Assembly: GCA_022600345.1 (NCBI GenBank)
Contig: JAHZKP010000127.1
Location: forward strand, 1-34,495
Reading direction: 5' to 3'
Length of the DNA: 34,495 nucleotides
From: Alphaproteobacteria bacterium
GTDB taxonomy: Bacteria > Pseudomonadota > Alphaproteobacteria > Rhizobiales > Hyphomicrobiaceae
The translations under genes were made by a program, and so were the position numbers. Shown one piece after another: positions 24,702 to 34,495 of the stretch. The notes under the pieces are model-generated. The model saw only the letters and a program-made list of their open reading frames with translations, was not told the origin of the DNA and ran no database searches. Position 1 is the first letter of the stretch. Each line of letters opens with the position of its first letter.

Positions 24702-26126
24702 CTATTGGCCAGAGGTGCGTGGCTGAGTAGATTCTCCGGGGAAGCGAAGCGGTGGCGTTGGCGTAATGCCGGTTGTGCGGGTCGGCTGGTTTTCCGGCAG
24801 CCCCGCCTCTCCGGGCTCGGGTGTTTTGCCCATCAACTTCATCAGGTAGAACACCCCCGCTCCAAAGACGAAAAAGTAGACAACTACAAACGCCGCAAGC
24901 GAGAATGAGACAGCCGGGGCGTCCAGTGGCGACGCCGAATCTATCGTCTTCAGCAGTCCGTAAACCGTGTACGGCTGCCGCCCCATCTCCGTCGTGATCC
25001 AACCGGCAAGAACCGCAACGAAGCCCATCGGACCCATCACAATCGCAGCCCGGTGCAACAGCCCCGGTCGGTAAAGCCCGCCCCTGAGCCGCGCCACCAG
25101 CGCCCATAATCCCAGACCGACCATCGCAAAACCAATCCCGACCATGATCCGGAAACTCCAGAAAATCACAGGTGCATAGGGGCGCTCATCTTTGGGCCAG
25201 GCCTTCAGCCCCTTTAACTCTCCATCCCAATCATGCGTCAGGATCATGCTTCCCAATTTCGGAATCTCGATTGCGTAGAGTGTTTTCTCCGCTTCCATAT
25301 CCGGCCAACCAAACAGGATCAACGGAGCGCCCTTCTGAGTTTCAAAGTGTCCCTCCATCGCCGCAATCTTGGCCGGTTGGTATTCAAGCGTATTCAGGCC
25401 GTGGGCATCGCCGGCAACGATCTGCATCGGCGCAACGATCACCGCCATCCACATCGCCATCGAGAACATCAGCTTCGCGCTGTCATTGTTCCTGTCTTTG
25501 AGAATGTGCCATGCCCCCACAGCACCGACGACAAAGGCCGTTGTCAGGTAGGCGGCCAGAACCATATGAACCAAGCGGTAGGGGAACGATGGATTAAAGA
25601 CGATCTCCCACCAGTTCGCCGGCACAAACTGCCCGACGTCATTGTAGGCAAACCCCGCAGGCGTATGCATCCAGCTATTGACCGAAAGAATCCAGAAGGC
25701 GGAAAAGAACGTCCCAAAGGCCACCAGCGCCGTTGCCAGGAAGTGCAGGCCCTTGCCGACTCGGTCCATGCCAAACAGCATCACGCCCAGGAAGCCGGCC
25801 TCAAGAAAGAACGCCGATAAGACCTCATACCCCATCATCGGACCAAGCACCGGCCCGGTCTTATCGGAAAACACGCTCCAGTTGGTGCCGAACTGGTAAC
25901 TCATCACGATGCCGGAGACGACGCCCATGGCAAACGTGACTGCAAAGATCTTCAACCAGTATTTGAATGTGTCGAGATAAACCGAGCGCCCGGTCCACAG
26001 CCACAGGCCTTCCAACACAGCCAGATACGAGGCAAGCCCGATCGAAAACGCTGGAAAGATGATGTGGAACGACACCGTGAACGCGAATTGGATCCGCGCC
26101 AGATCGATAGCAAGTGGCATGTCCAT
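24702..26126 (-). CDS. cydA: cyanide-insensitive quinol oxidase subunit I
   Basis: A 474-aa heme subunit (CioA type). It starts DLARIQFAFTVSFHIIFPAF with heme ligand His21, then GYEVLSAFFLEAGFLGVMLF and NSWMHTPAG. The quinol loop region is short, as in the cyanide-insensitive subfamily rather than in E. coli CydA. The C-terminal tail (residues 445-474) is Pro/Thr-rich and soluble. It leads the cydA-cydB-DUF2474 operon and is divergent from the adaptor gene at 26524. The start has GGAG 10 bases upstream; an ATG two codons later is an alternative. CioAB oxidases work under cyanide or NO stress. Confidence 0.9.
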   Translation of the reverse strand: MDMPLAIDLARIQFAFTVSFHIIFPAFSIGLASYLAVLEGLWLWTGRSVYLDTFKYWLKIFAVTFAMGVVSGIVMSYQFGTNWSVFSDKTGPVLGPMMGYEVLSAFFLEAGFLGVMLFGMDRVGKGLHFLATALVAFGTFFSAFWILSVNSWMHTPAGFAYNDVGQFVPANWWEIVFNPSFPYRLVHMVLAAYLTTAFVVGAVGAWHILKDRNNDSAKLMFSMAMWMAVIVAPMQIVAGDAHGLNTLEYQPAKIAAMEGHFETQKGAPLILFGWPDMEAEKTLYAIEIPKLGSMILTHDWDGELKGLKAWPKDERPYAPVIFWSFRIMVGIGFAMVGLGLWALVARLRGGLYRPGLLHRAAIVMGPMGFVAVLAGWITTEMGRQPYTVYGLLKTIDSASPLDAPAVSFSLAAFVVVYFFVFGAGVFYLMKLMGKTPEPGEAGLPENQPTRTTGITPTPPLRFPGESTQPRTSGQ

Positions 26127-26523: not shown

Positions 26524-27309
26524 TTGAGAGTCCCATCAACATTGAGGTTCACGCTGCTATTGTTCCTGGCAATTGCCGCAAGCGCACCCGCTATTGCCCA
26601 AAACCAATCGTTAGAAACACAGCTTGAACCACGCGGCGTTGTATCGTCGCGCTCAAAAGCCGTTATCGCATCCGAACTGGTAGCGCGGTTAAAGAGCATT
26701 CCATTTACCGACGGAGATCACTTCCAAAAGGGCGATACGCTGCTCGAATTCGATTGCCGTCGCTATCGGGCTGAATTGGACGCGGCCCTCGCCGAACAGC
26801 GCGCAGCACACCTAAACGTCCGCGAAAACAGCGCGTTACGACGCCACAAGGCCGTCGGTGCCAATGAATTGGAAATTTCCCGCGCCAAGTTTGCCCAGGC
26901 AAAAGCCGCAGCCCTGGCGATTGGCGTGCGCATGAGCCAATGCAAAATACTCGCCCCATTTTCCGGCCGCATCATCGAAAAGCTCGTCAATGAGTTCGAA
27001 ATTCCAAAGGCAAATGAACCGCTATTGCGAATTATCGATCACCGCAATCTGGAAATAGAACTTATTATCCCGTCGCAATGGCTGTCCTGGCTGAACACGA
27101 ACCACGAATTCAGCTTTATCGTCGACGAAACACAAAACGCCTATTCGGCAAAAGTTCATTCAATCAGCGCCGCTGTCGACCCAATTTCGCAAACCATCCG
27201 CGTCAAAGGAGAGTTCCTGTCGCCACCTGACAAAGTCCTGCCCGGAATGAGTGGAACGGCACGTTTCAAAAACGCTTCAGCGCTAGCCCAACAAGTGCCG
27301 AAGGGGTGA
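26524..27309 (+). CDS. RND/HlyD-type periplasmic adaptor protein
   Basis: A 261-aa protein with a signal peptide (TLLLFLAIAASAPAIAQ) and a membrane-fusion adaptor core. The lipoyl-like half (ASELVARLKSIPFTDGDHFQ) is followed by a short coiled coil rich in Ala (about 85-145), the second lipoyl half (CKILAPFSGRIIEKLVNEFE) and a beta-barrel part ending VLPGMSGTARF. The start is TTG with GGAG 8 bases upstream; no ATG precedes the signal peptide. No RND pump or ABC transporter gene accompanies it here. It is 4 bases from the next gene, in an operon of three adaptor-like proteins. Confidence 0.85.
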   Translation: MRVPSTLRFTLLLFLAIAASAPAIAQNQSLETQLEPRGVVSSRSKAVIASELVARLKSIPFTDGDHFQKGDTLLEFDCRRYRAELDAALAEQRAAHLNVRENSALRRHKAVGANELEISRAKFAQAKAAALAIGVRMSQCKILAPFSGRIIEKLVNEFEIPKANEPLLRIIDHRNLEIELIIPSQWLSWLNTNHEFSFIVDETQNAYSAKVHSISAAVDPISQTIRVKGEFLSPPDKVLPGMSGTARFKNASALAQQVPKG

Positions 27310-27313
27310 TGTC

Positions 27314-28750
27314 ATGGCCGCAGCTTTAAGATCCAAGCCACGCACAGCCCGGCAAAACGGCCCCTCGGCCCACGCTAATCGGCAACGCTCATCCCCCGCG
27401 AACCCGCCGCGCCCGACAGATACCGGCACCACCACCGGCCTTGAAATGATCCTGGCCCTTGAAGCACGGTTCCGCGCCGCTGAGTCACCCGAAGAAATCG
27501 GCTATCTGGCCGCCAACGACATGCGCAAACTGACCGGTTCCCGCCAGACATTCGTGCTGCAGGCAAACCGGGCGGGCTCGTTCAAGATCAAAACCGTCTC
27601 CAGCCTGGCAACCCTCGAACGCGACGCCCCCTTGATCCGCTGGATCGAAAAGCTGGTTGCAACGATGCATAAGGAACACGCACCCGCGCAGGCCGTTGAC
27701 TTCACCCTGCCCGCCTACTGCGACAACGACTGCCAGGACGCGCGCGCCTACCCCTTCCGCCACCTTCGCTGGCAACCACTTAAGTTGTCGGATGGAACCG
27801 CCTTCGCTGGAATACTGGAGGCTCGCGAACGTCCTTTCACGAGCGCCGACCAGCAGCTATGCTCTCGCCTCGCAGACGCGCTTGGCCATTCCTGGCGGGC
27901 GCTGACAACCGACAGAAGCCTGCGCCCCTCGCAACATCGACTTGCCATTTGGGCAGCACTCACCTGCGCTGTAATTCTCGCCGGCGCTATCCCCGTGCCG
28001 TTGACGACCATTGCGCCAATGCAGATCACAGCCAGTGATCCTTATGTCATCACCGCCCCGATGGACGGCGTCATTAAAACCGTTTCGCAAGCCCCGAACA
28101 CTCACATCTTGAAGGGGCAAACCCTGTTCAACTTCGACGACACGAGCTTCCGCAACAGAGCGCTGTTGGCCGAGCGCGAACTGGCGATTGCCAAAGCCAC
28201 CCACCACAAGACACGTCAACAAGCCTTCTCCAGCGAGGACGCCCGCTACCAGCTTGCAATCACCAGATCCGAACACGCATTGAAGGCCGCCGAACTGGCC
28301 TATGCCAACGAACTGCTTTCCCAATCGCACGTCACCGCCCCGGTTTCAGGCATTGTCATTTATCCAGACAAGAACGAACTTGAAGGGCGCCCCGTCGTAA
28401 CCGGCGAAGCGGTCATGGAAATCGCCGACCCTCAAAAGGTCGAGATTCAAATTGATCTCCCGGTTGCCGACGCCATCGTCCTGAAAAAGGGCGCCGATGT
28501 CCGCGTCTTTCTCGACGCAGCCCCGCTTGAGGCCCGTGAAGCCCGGATTATCACCGCCAGCTACCATGCCCAGCCCCAGGCCTCCGGCCAATTGGCCTAC
28601 AAGCTCACCGCCCGGTTCAAACAACACCGCGGCGAACTCCCCCGTATCGGTGCACACGGATCCGCTCAGGTCTTCGGCCAGACGACTTCTCTTGCTTTCT
28701 TTTTATTGCGCCGTCCGATCGCCGCCATCAGGCAGACTTTCGGATTCTGA
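27314..28750 (+). CDS. membrane protein with GAF-like and HlyD domains
   Basis: A 478-aa protein of unusual order. Residues 1-40 are Pro/Arg-rich. Residues 44-195 resemble a GAF-type sensory fold (EEIGYLAANDMRKLTGSRQT, RPFTSADQQLCSRLADALGH) and should be cytoplasmic. Residues 209-230 are a membrane helix (LAIWAALTCAVILAGAIPVP). Residues 240-460 are an HlyD-like periplasmic adaptor (VITAPMDGVIKTV, coiled coil 285-325, SHVTAPVSGIVIYPDKNELE, VPVADA-type barrel). The layout would let a cytoplasmic signal gate a periplasmic adaptor; that is inference. AAGGGG precedes the ATG by 7 bases. It lies between the adaptor gene and the M50 gene, with gaps of 4 and 2 bases. Confidence 0.8.
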   Translation: MAAALRSKPRTARQNGPSAHANRQRSSPANPPRPTDTGTTTGLEMILALEARFRAAESPEEIGYLAANDMRKLTGSRQTFVLQANRAGSFKIKTVSSLATLERDAPLIRWIEKLVATMHKEHAPAQAVDFTLPAYCDNDCQDARAYPFRHLRWQPLKLSDGTAFAGILEARERPFTSADQQLCSRLADALGHSWRALTTDRSLRPSQHRLAIWAALTCAVILAGAIPVPLTTIAPMQITASDPYVITAPMDGVIKTVSQAPNTHILKGQTLFNFDDTSFRNRALLAERELAIAKATHHKTRQQAFSSEDARYQLAITRSEHALKAAELAYANELLSQSHVTAPVSGIVIYPDKNELEGRPVVTGEAVMEIADPQKVEIQIDLPVADAIVLKKGADVRVFLDAAPLEAREARIITASYHAQPQASGQLAYKLTARFKQHRGELPRIGAHGSAQVFGQTTSLAFFLLRRPIAAIRQTFGF

Positions 28751-28752
28751 TT

Positions 28753-30882
28753 ATGACCACTGAAGCGCAAGCAGAACCCCTCGCAACCCTGCGTGAGGAC
28801 CTGACCCTTCGCCCCGGCGCGCCAGCAAAAAACGGCGAACCGCGCTGGCTGATTTACGACCCCGTCCGCCACCGGTATTTCGAAATCGCCCAACCGGCCT
28901 TCGAACTGCTGTCGGTATGGCCCGCACCCTCACGCGATGAATTCAAAGAGCGCTTCGAGGAAAAGTTTCTTCGCTCGCCCTGCGATACCCAGATCGACGA
29001 ACTCCAGCATTTCATCCACTCCAACAGCCTCACCCAGACCCCACCTGGCGGCGATAGTCGCGCATTCCTGGAACAGTCCCAACGCACTCGCCGAAGCGTT
29101 TTCATGCAAGGCGTCCAAGGGTACCTGTTCATCAGGTTTCCCCTTGTCCGCCCCAGCCGTTTCCTGACCGCGACCTTGCCGATCGTTGCTCCGCTCTTTT
29201 CGCGGCTGGCCGCCTGGATCATCCTTACCGTTGGCCTCATTGGCATCTACCTGGTCTCCCGGCAATGGGACGCCTTCACCCACACCTTCCTGCACTTCTT
29301 CTCCACCGAAGGAGCGATTTACTACGGCGTCAGCCTGATTCTCATAAAGACGCTGCACGAGCTCGCCCACGCCTACACCGCGACGCGCTACGGTGTGCGT
29401 GTTCCCACAATGGGCGTCGCCCTGATGGTGATGTTTCCTGTTCTTTATACCGACGTCACGGACGCCTGGCGGCTACGCTCACGACGCCAGCAGCTTGAGA
29501 TTGCCGCAGCCGGCATCGTCATGGAATTGGCGATCGCCTGCCTTGCCACCTTCGCCTGGGCCGTCCTGCCTGAGGGACCTGCAAAAAGCGTCGCCTTCAC
29601 GCTGGCGACCAGCAGTTGGATTCTGAGCCTTGCCATCAACCTCAATCCCCTGATGCGCTTTGATGGCTATTACCTGTTGGCGGATTTCTGGGGCATTTCC
29701 AACCTTCAGTCCCGTTCGTTTGCCATTGGCCGCTGGTGGTTACGCGAAGCCTTATTCGACCTCAAACACCCTCCACCCGATCGCTTTGACGCTCGGACGC
29801 GCAGGCTGCTTGCCGCCTATGCCTTCGCCACCTGGATCTACCGCTTTTTCCTTTTCCTGGGCATCGCACTTCTCGTCTACCACATCTTCTTCAAAGCCCT
29901 TGGCATCGTCTTATTCCTCGTTGAGATCGCTTACTTCATCGCGCTGCCGATAATGCGTGAATTCACATGCTGGTGGACAATCAAGGACGAAATCATGCAG
30001 ACCAGACGAACGGCCTATACAGCCCTGACGATTGCATTCCTAATCGGGCTTGCGGCAATACCGGTAAGCCGCACCGTTGTAATTCCCGCCACTCTCGAAG
30101 CTGAAGCTGCAAACAGCGTTTTTGCCCCGGCGCCCGGCAGGATCAAAGACGTTTTCATACATGACAGTGAGCCGGTTCGAAAAAATCAGATCCTGGCCCA
30201 ATTGGAATCTCCCGAGCTATTGCATCAACTGAGATTGACTGAAAGAAAGATAGAACTTGTAAAAGCACGAATTGCCCGCATAGCATCAGGTGAAAAGGAG
30301 CGCTTCAATAGCACAGTGCTCCATCATGAGCTTTCCGCCTTGCAGGAGAAACACGACGGACTGGATCGAGAAGTCGCCCGCCTGACGCTGCGCGCGCCGT
30401 CCGATGGCCACATCCGCGACCTCAATCAACTCGTTCACGTCGGAAGGTGGTTGAAAAGCGATGAACTCATCGCCCGCATTGTCAAGGGCGGCGACAACCG
30501 GCTGCGAGGCATACTTGGCGAGGACGATCTCTGGCGGCTGGAGCCGGGTGCATCAGGCATATTCATTCCCGACGACCCATCCATGTCTTCACTTGCCGTA
30601 TCGCTCGACGCCATCAACACAGCAGGCGAAAACACATTGGAAAACGACTATCTGGCCTCGACTTTCGGCGGCCCGATCCCTGTCGAGAAAACCTCAGATG
30701 GCAAGTTGAAGCCGGTCAACGGCATTCATTCGGCAAGCTTTTCGCCCCGCAACTCAAACCTGCCAGTCGCAGGTCGGAAAGTCCTGCGCGGCGTCATCCA
30801 TCTGACCGGAAAACCGGAAAGCCTCGCCGCGGCAGCCTGGCGCCAGGTCATGCGGATTCTCGTCCGCGAATCGAGCCTGTAG
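28753..30882 (+). CDS. PqqD-like / M50 site-2 protease / HlyD fusion
   Basis: A 709-aa polytopic protein. Residues 10-95 resemble a PqqD-type peptide-recognition domain (RWLIYDPVRHRYFEIAQPAF). An M50 metalloprotease follows (about 135-430): zinc motif HELAH (H202, E203, H206) in a membrane helix and the third ligand in NPLMRFDGYY (D304). After further membrane helices, residues 450-620 are a periplasmic HlyD-like adaptor (FAPAPGRIKDVFIHDSEPVR, coiled coil 510-555, LRAPSDGHIRDL). The catalytic residues are intact. It likely cuts membrane or exported substrates; the giant protein encoded next is the obvious candidate. It starts 2 bases after the preceding stop. Confidence 0.85.
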   Translation: MTTEAQAEPLATLREDLTLRPGAPAKNGEPRWLIYDPVRHRYFEIAQPAFELLSVWPAPSRDEFKERFEEKFLRSPCDTQIDELQHFIHSNSLTQTPPGGDSRAFLEQSQRTRRSVFMQGVQGYLFIRFPLVRPSRFLTATLPIVAPLFSRLAAWIILTVGLIGIYLVSRQWDAFTHTFLHFFSTEGAIYYGVSLILIKTLHELAHAYTATRYGVRVPTMGVALMVMFPVLYTDVTDAWRLRSRRQQLEIAAAGIVMELAIACLATFAWAVLPEGPAKSVAFTLATSSWILSLAINLNPLMRFDGYYLLADFWGISNLQSRSFAIGRWWLREALFDLKHPPPDRFDARTRRLLAAYAFATWIYRFFLFLGIALLVYHIFFKALGIVLFLVEIAYFIALPIMREFTCWWTIKDEIMQTRRTAYTALTIAFLIGLAAIPVSRTVVIPATLEAEAANSVFAPAPGRIKDVFIHDSEPVRKNQILAQLESPELLHQLRLTERKIELVKARIARIASGEKERFNSTVLHHELSALQEKHDGLDREVARLTLRAPSDGHIRDLNQLVHVGRWLKSDELIARIVKGGDNRLRGILGEDDLWRLEPGASGIFIPDDPSMSSLAVSLDAINTAGENTLENDYLASTFGGPIPVEKTSDGKLKPVNGIHSASFSPRNSNLPVAGRKVLRGVIHLTGKPESLAAAAWRQVMRILVRESSL

Positions 30883-30933
30883 TTCGAATTAGATTTTCAA
30901 AAAATACCGTTTCCTGTCCCACCCGCCGGAACC

Positions 30934-30961
30934 AATCGGCATTCGTACCGGAATGCGGATT
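30934..30961 (+). repeat. inverted repeat after the M50 gene
   Basis: AATCGGCATTC (30934-30944) pairs with GAATGCGGATT (30951-30961) with one G:G mismatch and a 6-base loop. It is followed by GTCTAAAAA, so it is a weak terminator or an operator in the 253-bp gap before the giant gene. Confidence 0.4.
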
Positions 30962-31135
30962 GTCTAAAAATATCAGCAAACAACAAGTTTTACGCTTTGA
31001 AATAAATACAACCTATAGATGCGCTTCAGCGCCGGTTCAACCAAAAAGTAATTTTATCCATCTATAAATTGGCAACTGAACAACAACCGCAATTCTCTCC
31101 CCCAAAGTTTTTACCCGGAAACCGGAGTCCGATTT

Positions 31136-34100
31136 ATGCTTCTCGATCCCCGCTGGCTCAATAAGAACTCGACCCGCAGCAATAAGCCGTCATTGAAACA
31201 ATTGGCAATGAGCTCCGTTTCCGCCCTTTCCCGCTCGGCATTAATCGCCAGCAAAACACCATTCCGTTCACGCCCCCCATCTCAAACCTCAGAGATATTC
31301 GCCAAACTCATTGCAACCCTTGGCCTCACACGGTTCTTCCGCAGGCGTGCAGCCGTACTCCGCCGCCACGCCCGCAGAGCCCGTGAAGCAATCATCCACA
31401 ACCAGCAGCGCAGACAACAACGTGCTCAACGCCGCAAGCAACAACTCCTTGCCCAAGGCGGCGCCAGTGGCCTGCATGCCCTCGAACCCCGCATGGTGTT
31501 TGATGCCGCAGCCGCTGTCACAGCCGAAAACGCTGCCGATCAGGTCGCCCAACAGCAAGCCAGCGACGCCCAGAGCGCCGACGCCCCACCGCCCACCGAA
31601 AATAAAGCCACCGCGGATGCCGAATTAACCGCGGCTGCCGATAACATCCCCACAGCATCTGACCGCAACGAAATCGCCTTCATAGATTCCAGCGTCCAAG
31701 ATATCGCCGAACTGCTTTCCGGCATTGACCCGTCGACTGAAATCATCATGCTGTCGCCCAACGAGGATGGCGTTGAACAGATTGCCGCCGCCCTTGAAGG
31801 CCGCGAGAACATCGACGCAATTCACCTCCTTTCCCACGGTGAGCAGGGCCGTATCTTCCTGGGCAACGATGTCCTCGATACCGCCAGCATGCAAGGCGAA
31901 CACCTCGACGACCTGACCGCCATCCGAAGCTCATTATCGGCAGAAGGTGACATCCTCATCTACGGCTGCGACTTCACCAGCGGTGAGGCTGGCCTGGAGG
32001 CTGCCATGCTGCTCGGCTCGATTACCGGTGCCGACATCGCTGCTTCGAGCGATGCCACCGGCAGCGCCGATTTGGGCGGCGACTGGGATCTGGAAACGAA
32101 CGTCGGCACGGTGGAGACCGATAAAATCAACGCGGCCGAATACAATGGCCTGCTCGCACCGCTGAGCGTCACTCCCGTTGGCACCGGCGGCGTCGATGCC
32201 ACGACACTTGCACAACAGATCGTCGGCACCGATGTCTCGATCGTCAGCGCGACCCTTGGCGGCGCCAATTCCCAAGCCGGTACATTCTCTGGCGCTACTG
32301 GATACAACCCCGCCTGGCTCGCCTTCGACAATGGCGTCGTCCTGTCAAGCGGCACCGCCACAAGCCTGACCGCCAGCAACACCGCAGACGGCGATTTTCT
32401 GAACATGGGCCAGCCGGGAACGGCTGATTTTGACGCCGTGGGCGGCGGCACATCTTTTGATGCCTCCTATATCGACATCAAGTTCGTGCCCAACAACGAC
32501 CGCATCGCGCTGGAATTTGTTTTCGGCTCCGATGAATATAACGAATACGTCTACGCCTCGGTCAACGACGCCATCGGCATCTGGGTCGACGGCACCAACA
32601 TTGCTCTCAACCCGACTGGCGACCCGATCGGTATCGACACCATCAACCAGGCCGCCGACTTCAATCCGGGCAGCGGAAGCCAGGCCAACGATCCCAACCC
32701 CGCAAATGGCGTTTACGATTCCTCCGCCCCCGCCCTCTACGTCAACAACGACATCAACGACGGCGGCCCGGTCTATTCCACCTCGATGGACGGCTTCACC
32801 CGCACGCTTGGAGCCAACATCACCGTTACGCCCGGCGTTGAAACGACCATCCGCATCGGCATCGCCGACATTGGCGACGGTGTCTGGTCGTCCTGGCTCC
32901 TGATCCGCGGAGACAGCTTCCAGTCCAACCTTATTGCTGAAAACGATGCAGTCGGAACCACCGTCGACACCCCGGTCACCTTCAGCCCGACCGCCAATGA
33001 TGTCGACTTCGACGATGACGCCATCTCAATCATCAACATTGCCGACCAGCCGATCACGGCAGGCAACTCAGTCGTGCTGGCGTCTGGCGGAACAGTCCTG
33101 CTTAACAATGACAACACGCTGACCTACACACCGCCCGCCGGCTCCACGGCCCCCGAATTGTTCACCTATACGATCACTGATTCCAACGGCAACACCGCCA
33201 CCGCCTATGTCACCGTCAACGTCGTATCGGGCGCCGCCCCGACGCTTGACCTCGACGCTTCCGCTGCCGGCACCGGCTTTGCAACATCCTATTCCGCAGG
33301 CGGCACACCGGTTGCGATAGCCGACATCGACACCTCAGTCGTCGACACGGATTCAAGCATCGCCAGCGCAACAATCGGCATTTCCAGCTCCTTTGCAGGC
33401 GACCAACTGGCAGCAGGCTCGCTGCCCGCCGGCATTACCGTTGATACGGCAAGCTCCAGCGCAACCAGCATCGTCCTGACCGGCAACGCTTCACCGGCCG
33501 ACTATGCCGCGGCAATCGAAGCGATCACGTTCTCCAACTCGGATGCAAACCCCGACACCACCGATCGTCAGGTCGCAGTCCAGATTACCGATACGCAAGG
33601 GCTGTCCTCCAACCTCGCCCAGGCGACCATCTCTATCTCAGCAAACCAGTCACCCACTGCAGTCAATGACACCTTCTCGACCGACGACGCCACATCGGTC
33701 ACCATCGACGTCATTGGCGGTCCCGGAGCCGACAGCGACCCCGATGGCGATAGCCTGACCGTGACCCACGTCGATGGCAACGCCATTACCGACGGTGGAC
33801 CAGGCGTTGCTGTCACAGGAGGAACCGTCACTCTTGTGTCTGGCGAGCTTGTCTTCACCCCATCCGGAGCCGGCTCACCGTCCTTCACCTACACAATCGA
33901 CGACGGTAAAGGTGGCACCGATCAGGCCACGGTCACCGGCACCGTAACGCCCTCAAACCTTCCGCCAGTGGCAAACGACTCAACCTCATCAGGCGATGAA
34001 GACAACGACATACCCATAGCCCTTACCGGCACAGACAGCGATGGCAGCATTGCCACGGTTTCGGTGACGTCGCTGCCGCCAGCTTCAGAAGGCATCCTCT

Positions 34101-34495
34101 ATTACGCGGGCGGCACTCTACCGGTCTCCACCAGTACGCCACTGACCGCGGCCGAGGCGGCAGACCTTGTCTTCACTCCGGCCGAGAACTTCCATGGCAC
34201 CGTGACAGTCTCATTCACGGTCACCGACGATGACGGCGCATCAAGTGGCTCTGCAAACGAAGTTATAACCGTCAATCCGGTCAACGATGACCCCACCGCC
34301 GTTGATAACGACTACACCGCCTGCGAAGACGATACAGCTAGCGTCATCGGCAATGCGCTGACCGATAACGATAGCGGCGTCGATGCCGATCCCGATGGCG
34401 ACGACCTCGAACTGATCGCCGCTTCGAACGTTGCCGGAACAGCAGGCGGCCTGTTCTCCGTCACGACCAACGGCCAAGTCACCTTCGACCCCAAC
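31136..34495 (+). CDS. giant LEPR/DUF4347/cadherin-like surface protein, N-terminal part
   Basis: The first 1120 codons of an uninterrupted frame that runs off the right edge. Residues 1-65 have no classical signal peptide. Residues 66-101 are very Arg-rich (14 Arg). LEPRMVFDAA at 116-125 is the LEPR motif seen at the start of giant surface proteins. DUF4347 covers about 179-338, with HLLSHGEQG (H234) and IYGCDFTSGEAG (C278). A choice-of-anchor L domain (about 345-600) follows, with FVFGSDEYNEYVYASVNDAI. The rest is cadherin/VCBS-like repeats (AENDAVGTTVDTPVTFSPTA, DSDPDGDSLTVTHV, SFTVTDDDGASSG) rich in Asp for calcium. GGAG is 8 bases before the ATG. It is likely an adhesin or biofilm protein exported by the adjacent genes. 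Confidence 0.85.
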   Translation, partial: MLLDPRWLNKNSTRSNKPSLKQLAMSSVSALSRSALIASKTPFRSRPPSQTSEIFAKLIATLGLTRFFRRRAAVLRRHARRAREAIIHNQQRRQQRAQRRKQQLLAQGGASGLHALEPRMVFDAAAAVTAENAADQVAQQQASDAQSADAPPPTENKATADAELTAAADNIPTASDRNEIAFIDSSVQDIAELLSGIDPSTEIIMLSPNEDGVEQIAAALEGRENIDAIHLLSHGEQGRIFLGNDVLDTASMQGEHLDDLTAIRSSLSAEGDILIYGCDFTSGEAGLEAAMLLGSITGADIAASSDATGSADLGGDWDLETNVGTVETDKINAAEYNGLLAPLSVTPVGTGGVDATTLAQQIVGTDVSIVSATLGGANSQAGTFSGATGYNPAWLAFDNGVVLSSGTATSLTASNTADGDFLNMGQPGTADFDAVGGGTSFDASYIDIKFVPNNDRIALEFVFGSDEYNEYVYASVNDAIGIWVDGTNIALNPTGDPIGIDTINQAADFNPGSGSQANDPNPANGVYDSSAPALYVNNDINDGGPVYSTSMDGFTRTLGANITVTPGVETTIRIGIADIGDGVWSSWLLIRGDSFQSNLIAENDAVGTTVDTPVTFSPTANDVDFDDDAISIINIADQPITAGNSVVLASGGTVLLNNDNTLTYTPPAGSTAPELFTYTITDSNGNTATAYVTVNVVSGAAPTLDLDASAAGTGFATSYSAGGTPVAIADIDTSVVDTDSSIASATIGISSSFAGDQLAAGSLPAGITVDTASSSATSIVLTGNASPADYAAAIEAITFSNSDANPDTTDRQVAVQITDTQGLSSNLAQATISISANQSPTAVNDTFSTDDATSVTIDVIGGPGADSDPDGDSLTVTHVDGNAITDGGPGVAVTGGTVTLVSGELVFTPSGAGSPSFTYTIDDGKGGTDQATVTGTVTPSNLPPVANDSTSSGDEDNDIPIALTGTDSDGSIATVSVTSLPPASEGILYYAGGTLPVSTSTPLTAAEAADLVFTPAENFHGTVTVSFTVTDDDGASSGSANEVITVNPVNDDPTAVDNDYTACEDDTASVIGNALTDNDSGVDADPDGDDLELIAASNVAGTAGGLFSVTTNGQVTFDPN

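Follow-up and report, generated by a model that had tools for sequence, protein, structure and literature searches.

The stretch of DNA analysed here (the window) is a complete contig of 34,495 nucleotides from an alphaproteobacterium of the Hyphomicrobiaceae, contig C12 of the source assembly. Its right-hand part carries three genes, P1, P2 and P3, followed by the beginning of a gene for a giant surface protein, all on the plus strand, and these genes are considered here as a candidate export and maturation module. P1 (26524..27309) encodes an RND-type periplasmic adaptor, P2 (27314..28750) a protein with a GAF-like N-terminus, one transmembrane segment (residues 210-228, from hydropathy) and a C-terminal HlyD adaptor, and P3 (28753..30882) a fusion of a PqqD-like domain, an M50 intramembrane protease and a HlyD adaptor. 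The open reading frame (ORF) of the giant (31136..34495) comprises the first 1120 residues and is still open where the contig ends. According to the ORF coordinates the spacing is 4 bases between P1 and P2, 2 between P2 and P3 and 253 between P3 and the giant, hence the tight packing of the three genes ahead of a DUF4347/cadherin-like giant, described in the initial annotation, was confirmed. A cydA-like gene recognised by eye (24702-26126, minus strand) lies immediately upstream of P1; there is therefore no channel gene on that side.

P1 scored 114.3 bits against the TIGR01730 (RND_mfp) model, above the cut-off of 94.9, and also matched HlyD_3. It has an N-terminal hydrophobic segment (residues 1-19), and no lipobox could be seen by eye. 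HlyD_3 was above the Pfam cut-off in both P2 and P3, and P2 matched HlyD_D23 as well. Thus the RND-type assignment of P1 and the presence of adaptor modules in all three genes, both proposed earlier, hold. As to the GAF-like character of P2, the Pfam GAF model matched two of the 38 P2 homologues (best E 2.4e-6) and gave no match in the window's own P2.

P3 has six hydrophobic segments and matched Peptidase_M50 with 34.1 bits (Pfam cut-off 27.2), and the same model matched all 38 P3 homologues at E<=1. In the HExxH zinc motif (residues 202-206, 29356..29370, plus strand) H202, E203 and H206 are invariant, in 17/17 sequences of one alignment and 38/38 of a larger one, and in the FDGY motif (residues 303-306, 29659..29670, plus strand) D304, G305 and Y306 are invariant in 38/38. 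D304 is presumed to be the third zinc ligand, and with HExxH and a downstream conserved Asp within transmembrane segments P3 is predicted to be a site-2 protease of the M50 type. The core of P3 also matched the daptide_HExxH model NF041824 in 38/38 members at E<=1 and LiaK in 35/38, the score of the window's P3 with NF041824 (163.4 bits) being short of the cut-off of 300. The PqqD-like domain, similar to domains that recognise ribosomally synthesised and post-translationally modified peptides (RiPPs), covers residues 32-89 (28846..29019, plus strand). The Pfam PqqD model matched one of the 38 homologues (E 0.12), and profile-profile comparison with hhalign gave Prob 91.3 (E 9.7e-7), whereas a reversed control reached Prob 1.2, in agreement with the earlier PqqD-like assignment; the PqqD profile was made of 21 domains, since 9 of 30 rows were judged antisense by inspection and left out. 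Judged from domain order and hydropathy, the recognition-like domain would be cytosolic, the protease membrane-embedded and the adaptor periplasmic.

The available part of the giant contains a motif, LEPRMVFD, at residues 116-123 (31481..31504), a DUF4347 domain (31673..32143; 167-171.8 bits) and a choice-of-anchor L domain (32204..32920; NF038133, 161.6 bits), all on the plus strand, and Big_9/cadherin domains were also found in the profile searches. In DUF4347 Cys278 is kept in 20/20 members and His234 in 18/20. Peptidase_C80 matched three of the 20 (best 3.1e-4), the window's own domain not being among them, and a search of PDB sequences with DUF4347 returned 9qpe_G, which is named a DUF4347 protein (E 1.8e-4). 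The conserved Cys and His and the Peptidase_C80 matches suggest that DUF4347 may be a self-processing, C80-like cysteine protease of clan CD.

The TolC-type channel gene and the recurrence of the set

Since the window is one entire contig, the absence of a TolC gene from it is an edge effect. Another contig of the assembly, C63, starts with 46 bases that are identical to the window end, unique in the assembly and in the reading frame of the giant. C63 holds the 410-residue C-terminal part of a giant and then the gene of a TolC-type lipoprotein, with a lipobox-like LLAGGC stretch seen by eye. This gene matches the channel found beside the set in relatives, and among the OEP genes of the source genome it is the only one that matched the channel hidden Markov model (HMM) obtained from relatives (635 bits). 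The channel is divergent, as the NodT/TolC models were below cut-off or silent in 8/8 cases. The HMMs for ATP-binding cassette (ABC) and RND pumps gave no match anywhere on C63. The earlier statement that no ABC, RND or TolC gene is in the visible part is therefore true for the window, but a TolC-type gene follows on the contig which continues the giant. A full type I set of ABC, HlyD and TolC genes downstream, which according to the initial annotation could have explained the export, was not found there: C63 has the TolC-type gene and no ABC or RND match. The set comprises P1, P2, P3 and the giant in the window and the TolC-type outer-membrane lipoprotein on C63. C63 also has an ORF that appears caspase-like by eye (SGHG, DAC; L158:7339-7998), some 4 kb 3' of the channel gene.

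At least 586 relatives of P3 were found in 84,980 species genomes, and the best 80 were studied, a choice by which the locus sample leans toward close relatives. The set was found in Alpha-, Beta- and Gammaproteobacteria, Nitrospirota and SAR11, with Hyphomicrobium, Rhizobium, Azospirillum, Nitrospira, Nitrosomonas, Pseudomonas, Pectobacterium, Halomonas and Pelagibacteraceae among the titles of the relatives. A script placed P2 directly 5' of P3 in 74 of the 76 loci with enough sequence, and in the remaining two (L109 and L112) P2 is present in the map. P1 is present in 70/74 loci, and 44/65 loci contain a channel gene at some position; 13 of the 21 channel-less loci are from Pseudomonas or Stutzerimonas, and in the related L115 the channel comes after the giant. 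Where 6 kb was available on both sides (43 loci), a giant-size ORF was present in 41 loci, and 28 had an ORF carrying the LEPR motif. The neighbourhood search proposed earlier as a check thus gave a positive answer, the set recurring beside giants in distant taxa. The largest giant beside the set has about 16,000 residues and comes from Variovorax; in the Variovorax paradoxus locus (L201, CP063167.1:19413-68132) the 48.7-kb gene, annotated as a tandem-95 repeat protein, precedes the set. Among viral contigs no relatives were found with the query P0003 and two with A2, the better of which (L192) has P2 and P3.

P3 relatives are also present on 51 plasmid records, including 17 from Escherichia, 13 from Azospirillum and 8 from Citrobacter. 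In the 14 annotated plasmid stretches examined a TolC family gene is listed in 12 and a neighbour of more than 1000 residues in 13, Magnetospirillum having one of 492 residues. A near-identical P3 gene occurs in 24 of 5426 complete Escherichia coli genomes, at 21 places on plasmids and at 4 on chromosomes. The three E. coli records examined have the order giant-TolC-P1-P2-P3, surrounded by insertion sequence (IS) or transposon genes and with no ABC gene inside, and in E. coli and Kosakonia the set forms self-contained, ABC-free blocks between IS elements or unrelated genes. Giants adjoin the set in bacteria of soil and marine habitats, in plant-associated and nitrifying bacteria, and on plasmids of Enterobacteriaceae. 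Genes annotated as tail fiber protein were repeatedly met close to the set, namely in Kosakonia, Niveispirillum, Burkholderia and Azospirillum TSA2s, and a similar small ORF was seen by eye in Pseudomonas congelans; the positions of these tail-fiber-type genes are L196:16128-18235, L211:3510-4409, L213:3824-4438, L214:6371-7090 and L103:12997-13587.

The LEPR motif of the giants and its co-occurrence with P3

The giants adjoining the set have a common N-terminal motif, L-E-x-R-x-x-F-D-A/G-A, situated roughly within residues 1-130 (at residue 17 in the giants of E. coli 0H25 and KMi029), which corresponds to the LEPR-XLL region of NCBI. Its L, E, R and D are invariant in 36/36 aligned motifs, which had been chosen by a pattern already fixing L, E and R but not D, and also in 20/20 DUF4347 giants. 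The pattern occurs 52 times in the 1.17 million ORF residues of the loci L032-L131, 51 times in large ORFs and once in an ORF truncated where the locus ends. The NCBI model NF012209 (LEPR-XLL) gave 13.5 bits on the window giant, short of the cut-off of 17, and matched four of six giants, every one below cut-off. As a genome-wide marker it was silent in the source genome and was dropped, and our own motif alignment (A6) was used instead.

A strongly hydrophobic N-terminal stretch (a 15-residue window of mean hydropathy >=2.0, up to 14 residues past the motif) was detected in only one of the 52 LEPR-bearing ORFs, which agrees with the earlier remark that the substrate has no classical signal peptide. 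The same count bears on a two-step route, in which Sec or some other general pathway would take the giant across the inner membrane, the LEPR stretch serving as an atypical anchor, after which P3 would release it and the adaptors and the TolC-type protein would export it. M50 proteases do act on membrane segments, and Ala-rich hydrophobic residues follow the LEPR stretch; the scarcity of strongly hydrophobic stretches and the invariant charged E, R and D within the motif nevertheless make such a route unlikely.

Motif and P3 occur together across genomes. In a class sample of 385 genomes, with E<=1e-3 as the limit of a solid motif match, 18 genomes have motif and P3, 6 have P3 only, none has the motif only and 361 have neither (Fisher 3.7e-26, a statistic which ignores shared ancestry); three weaker motif matches (E 0.004-0.009) are in class genomes without P3. 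In the 18 genomes the distance between motif and P3 is about 26 kb or less in 12, in 5 they are on different contigs and in one about 3.2 Mb separates them. Since the last is a single-contig genome (G450), the link is not one of neighbourhood alone. DUF4347, searched with a curated model that owed nothing to the present training, gave a different distribution in the class sample: 19 genomes with P3, 5 with P3 only, 18 with DUF4347 only and 343 with neither. As 18 of the 37 DUF4347 genomes have no P3, DUF4347 was rejected as the export mark, and what the substrates share as a mark is the LEPR motif. In a family sample of 103 genomes P3 was found in 27, DUF4347 in 22 and both in 19, where the P3 count excludes matches below 356 bits, that is, fragments in G027, G088, G022 and G073 and HlyD-only matches; 18 of the 20 family genomes with a motif match at E<=1e-3 have P3.

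This co-occurrence and the repeated adjacency in distant taxa also bear on the idea that the giant adjoins the set by chance, the adaptors and the M50 protein having their role in small-molecule efflux or in the maturation of peptides. The family names, of efflux and RiPP kind, would favour it, but in view of the genome and neighbourhood data we consider it very improbable.

Pumps near the set and the proposed export route

An ABC match above 150 bits was found in one of the 80 loci (L112) and an RND match above 150 bits in none of them, and a type I ABC gene is annotated in one of the 14 plasmid stretches, that of Phyllobacterium (L202). The dedicated ABC exporter of a type I system is therefore lacking at nearly all of the loci, while the HlyD-type adaptor and the TolC-type channel are present; the pump of an RND efflux system is lacking in all 80. 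As a counter-example, a relative from the family has an AcrB pump and an adaptor upstream of broken P2/P3 genes (L046:10779-18210).

The main rival explanation is an ABC pump acting in trans, that is, a variant of type I secretion in which an exporter encoded elsewhere powers the export, P1-P3 and the TolC-type protein are special adaptors and the M50 domain processes the substrate. Every part except M50/PqqD is of the tripartite kind, the source genome has ABC exporters, and L112 and L202 have ABC genes close to the set. The signals of type I substrates are C-terminal and uncleaved, often with RTX repeats, and a C-terminal tail is common to many giants, a loose pattern matching 20 of 30 C-termini. 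On the other hand, ABC genes are rare at the loci and on the plasmids, as given above, and the mobile five-gene blocks have none. The canonical sets of the source genome, moreover, have their own substrates alongside: the ABC genes on C77 and C91 pass the LssB model and each has an adjoining channel gene, a HlyD gene and a long ORF, and a third ABC/HlyD pair (C57) is beside an ORF with 17 GGxGxD repeats. GGxGxD is absent from 39 of the 52 LEPR ORFs, although 39 of the 52 are cut at the C-terminus. Taken together, we regard the ABC pump in trans as rather unlikely, yet better placed than the two-step route. The C-termini of the giants are of two kinds (for example L061, L085 and L088 against L071, L113 and L129); one kind ends in a soluble tail whose pattern resembles F-x-x-Q-L, the other, in the Nitrospira and Nitrosomonas loci, in a hydrophobic tail such as GWLLRSGSLLASLL.

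On the sequence evidence presented, the five-gene set is probably a dedicated export and maturation module for LEPR-tagged giants, for which we estimate a probability of about 0.68. Several observations weigh against this interpretation. Besides the type I ABC genes in L112 and Phyllobacterium L202, the motif pattern was present in 7 of 12 plasmid/chromosome records, a Tyr variant in one and neither in four. The family genomes G011 and G086 (about 70% complete) have the motif without P3, 6 of the 24 P3 genomes of the class sample have no solid motif match and 8 of the 27 of the family sample have no DUF4347. Because giants beside P3 served to train the motif model, it may overlook other types of LEPR protein, and a LEPR-XLL protein that has RTX at its C-terminus has been published from Vibrio (PMC10868602).

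If the set is a module of this type, the cytosolic PqqD-like domain of P3 would read the LEPR tag, and P2, P3 and P1 would form an inner-membrane and periplasmic conduit docking on the TolC-type channel. The M50 site of P3 could then cut at or near the LEPR/FDAA stretch and free the front end of the giant, which the C80-like DUF4347, where present, may trim further afterwards. The folding of many beta domains outside the cell, and not a dedicated pump, may drive the passage, the energy source being the least certain step. That all this amounts to a secretion system of its own type, with a LEPR tag read by PqqD, a three-adaptor conduit with TolC, release by the protease, passage driven by folding and no dedicated ATPase or proton pump, is a tentative proposal with the odds against it. 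The route built from adaptors and a membrane protease that the initial annotation had suggested is favoured by the recurrence and the co-occurrence, but needs correcting: the TolC-type gene is part of the set, thus the route is not TolC-less, and the mark is LEPR, not DUF4347.

Comparison with known systems

The genes of the set are currently named only as efflux adaptors or peptidases. A literature search, which included the accessible parts of PMC11438254, PMC12322963 and PMC6963963 and left subscription journals mostly outside its scope, gave no description of the set. Two candidates for a described example were set aside, since in the accessible parts of their descriptions the Pectobacterium MRP is type I secreted and the Pantoea RTX2 autotransported. 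If our interpretation is correct, a secretion path and a sorting tag can be assigned to a large class of surface proteins, and the way in which such chains leave the cell with no pump in evidence becomes a testable question.

The type I secretion of large adhesins of the LapA and BapA kind resembles the set in the giant repetitive surface proteins, the TolC-type channel and the HlyD-type adaptors. The set differs in that its block lacks an ABC exporter and has three adaptor modules where these systems have one, and in the M50 protease and LEPR. LapA is also said to have an important N-terminal module. RND tripartite efflux of the MexAB-OprM kind is similar in that P1 passes TIGR01730 and the channel is a TolC-type lipoprotein, but no RND pump is present in 80/80 loci of the set and the substrate is a protein. 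BapP of Pseudoalteromonas tunicata is a large Big_9/cadherin-like adhesin beside export genes; unlike the set it has a Sec signal and ABC genes, and the accessible part of the article mentions no M50 gene (PMC12153261). The M50 proteases of daptides and epipeptides (YydH/LiaK) share with P3 the core that matches NF041824 and LiaK and the PqqD-like domain, but P3 is fused to a HlyD adaptor, its neighbour is a giant and not a peptide, and its score is 163 against a cut-off of 300.

In the PEP-CTERM/exosortase and GlyGly-CTERM/rhombosortase systems the distribution of a short tag over genomes follows that of a membrane protease, and the pairing of LEPR with P3 is of the same kind. It differs from these sorting-tag pairs in that the tag is N-terminal, the protease is of the M50 type and fused to an adaptor, and a TolC-type channel belongs to the set.

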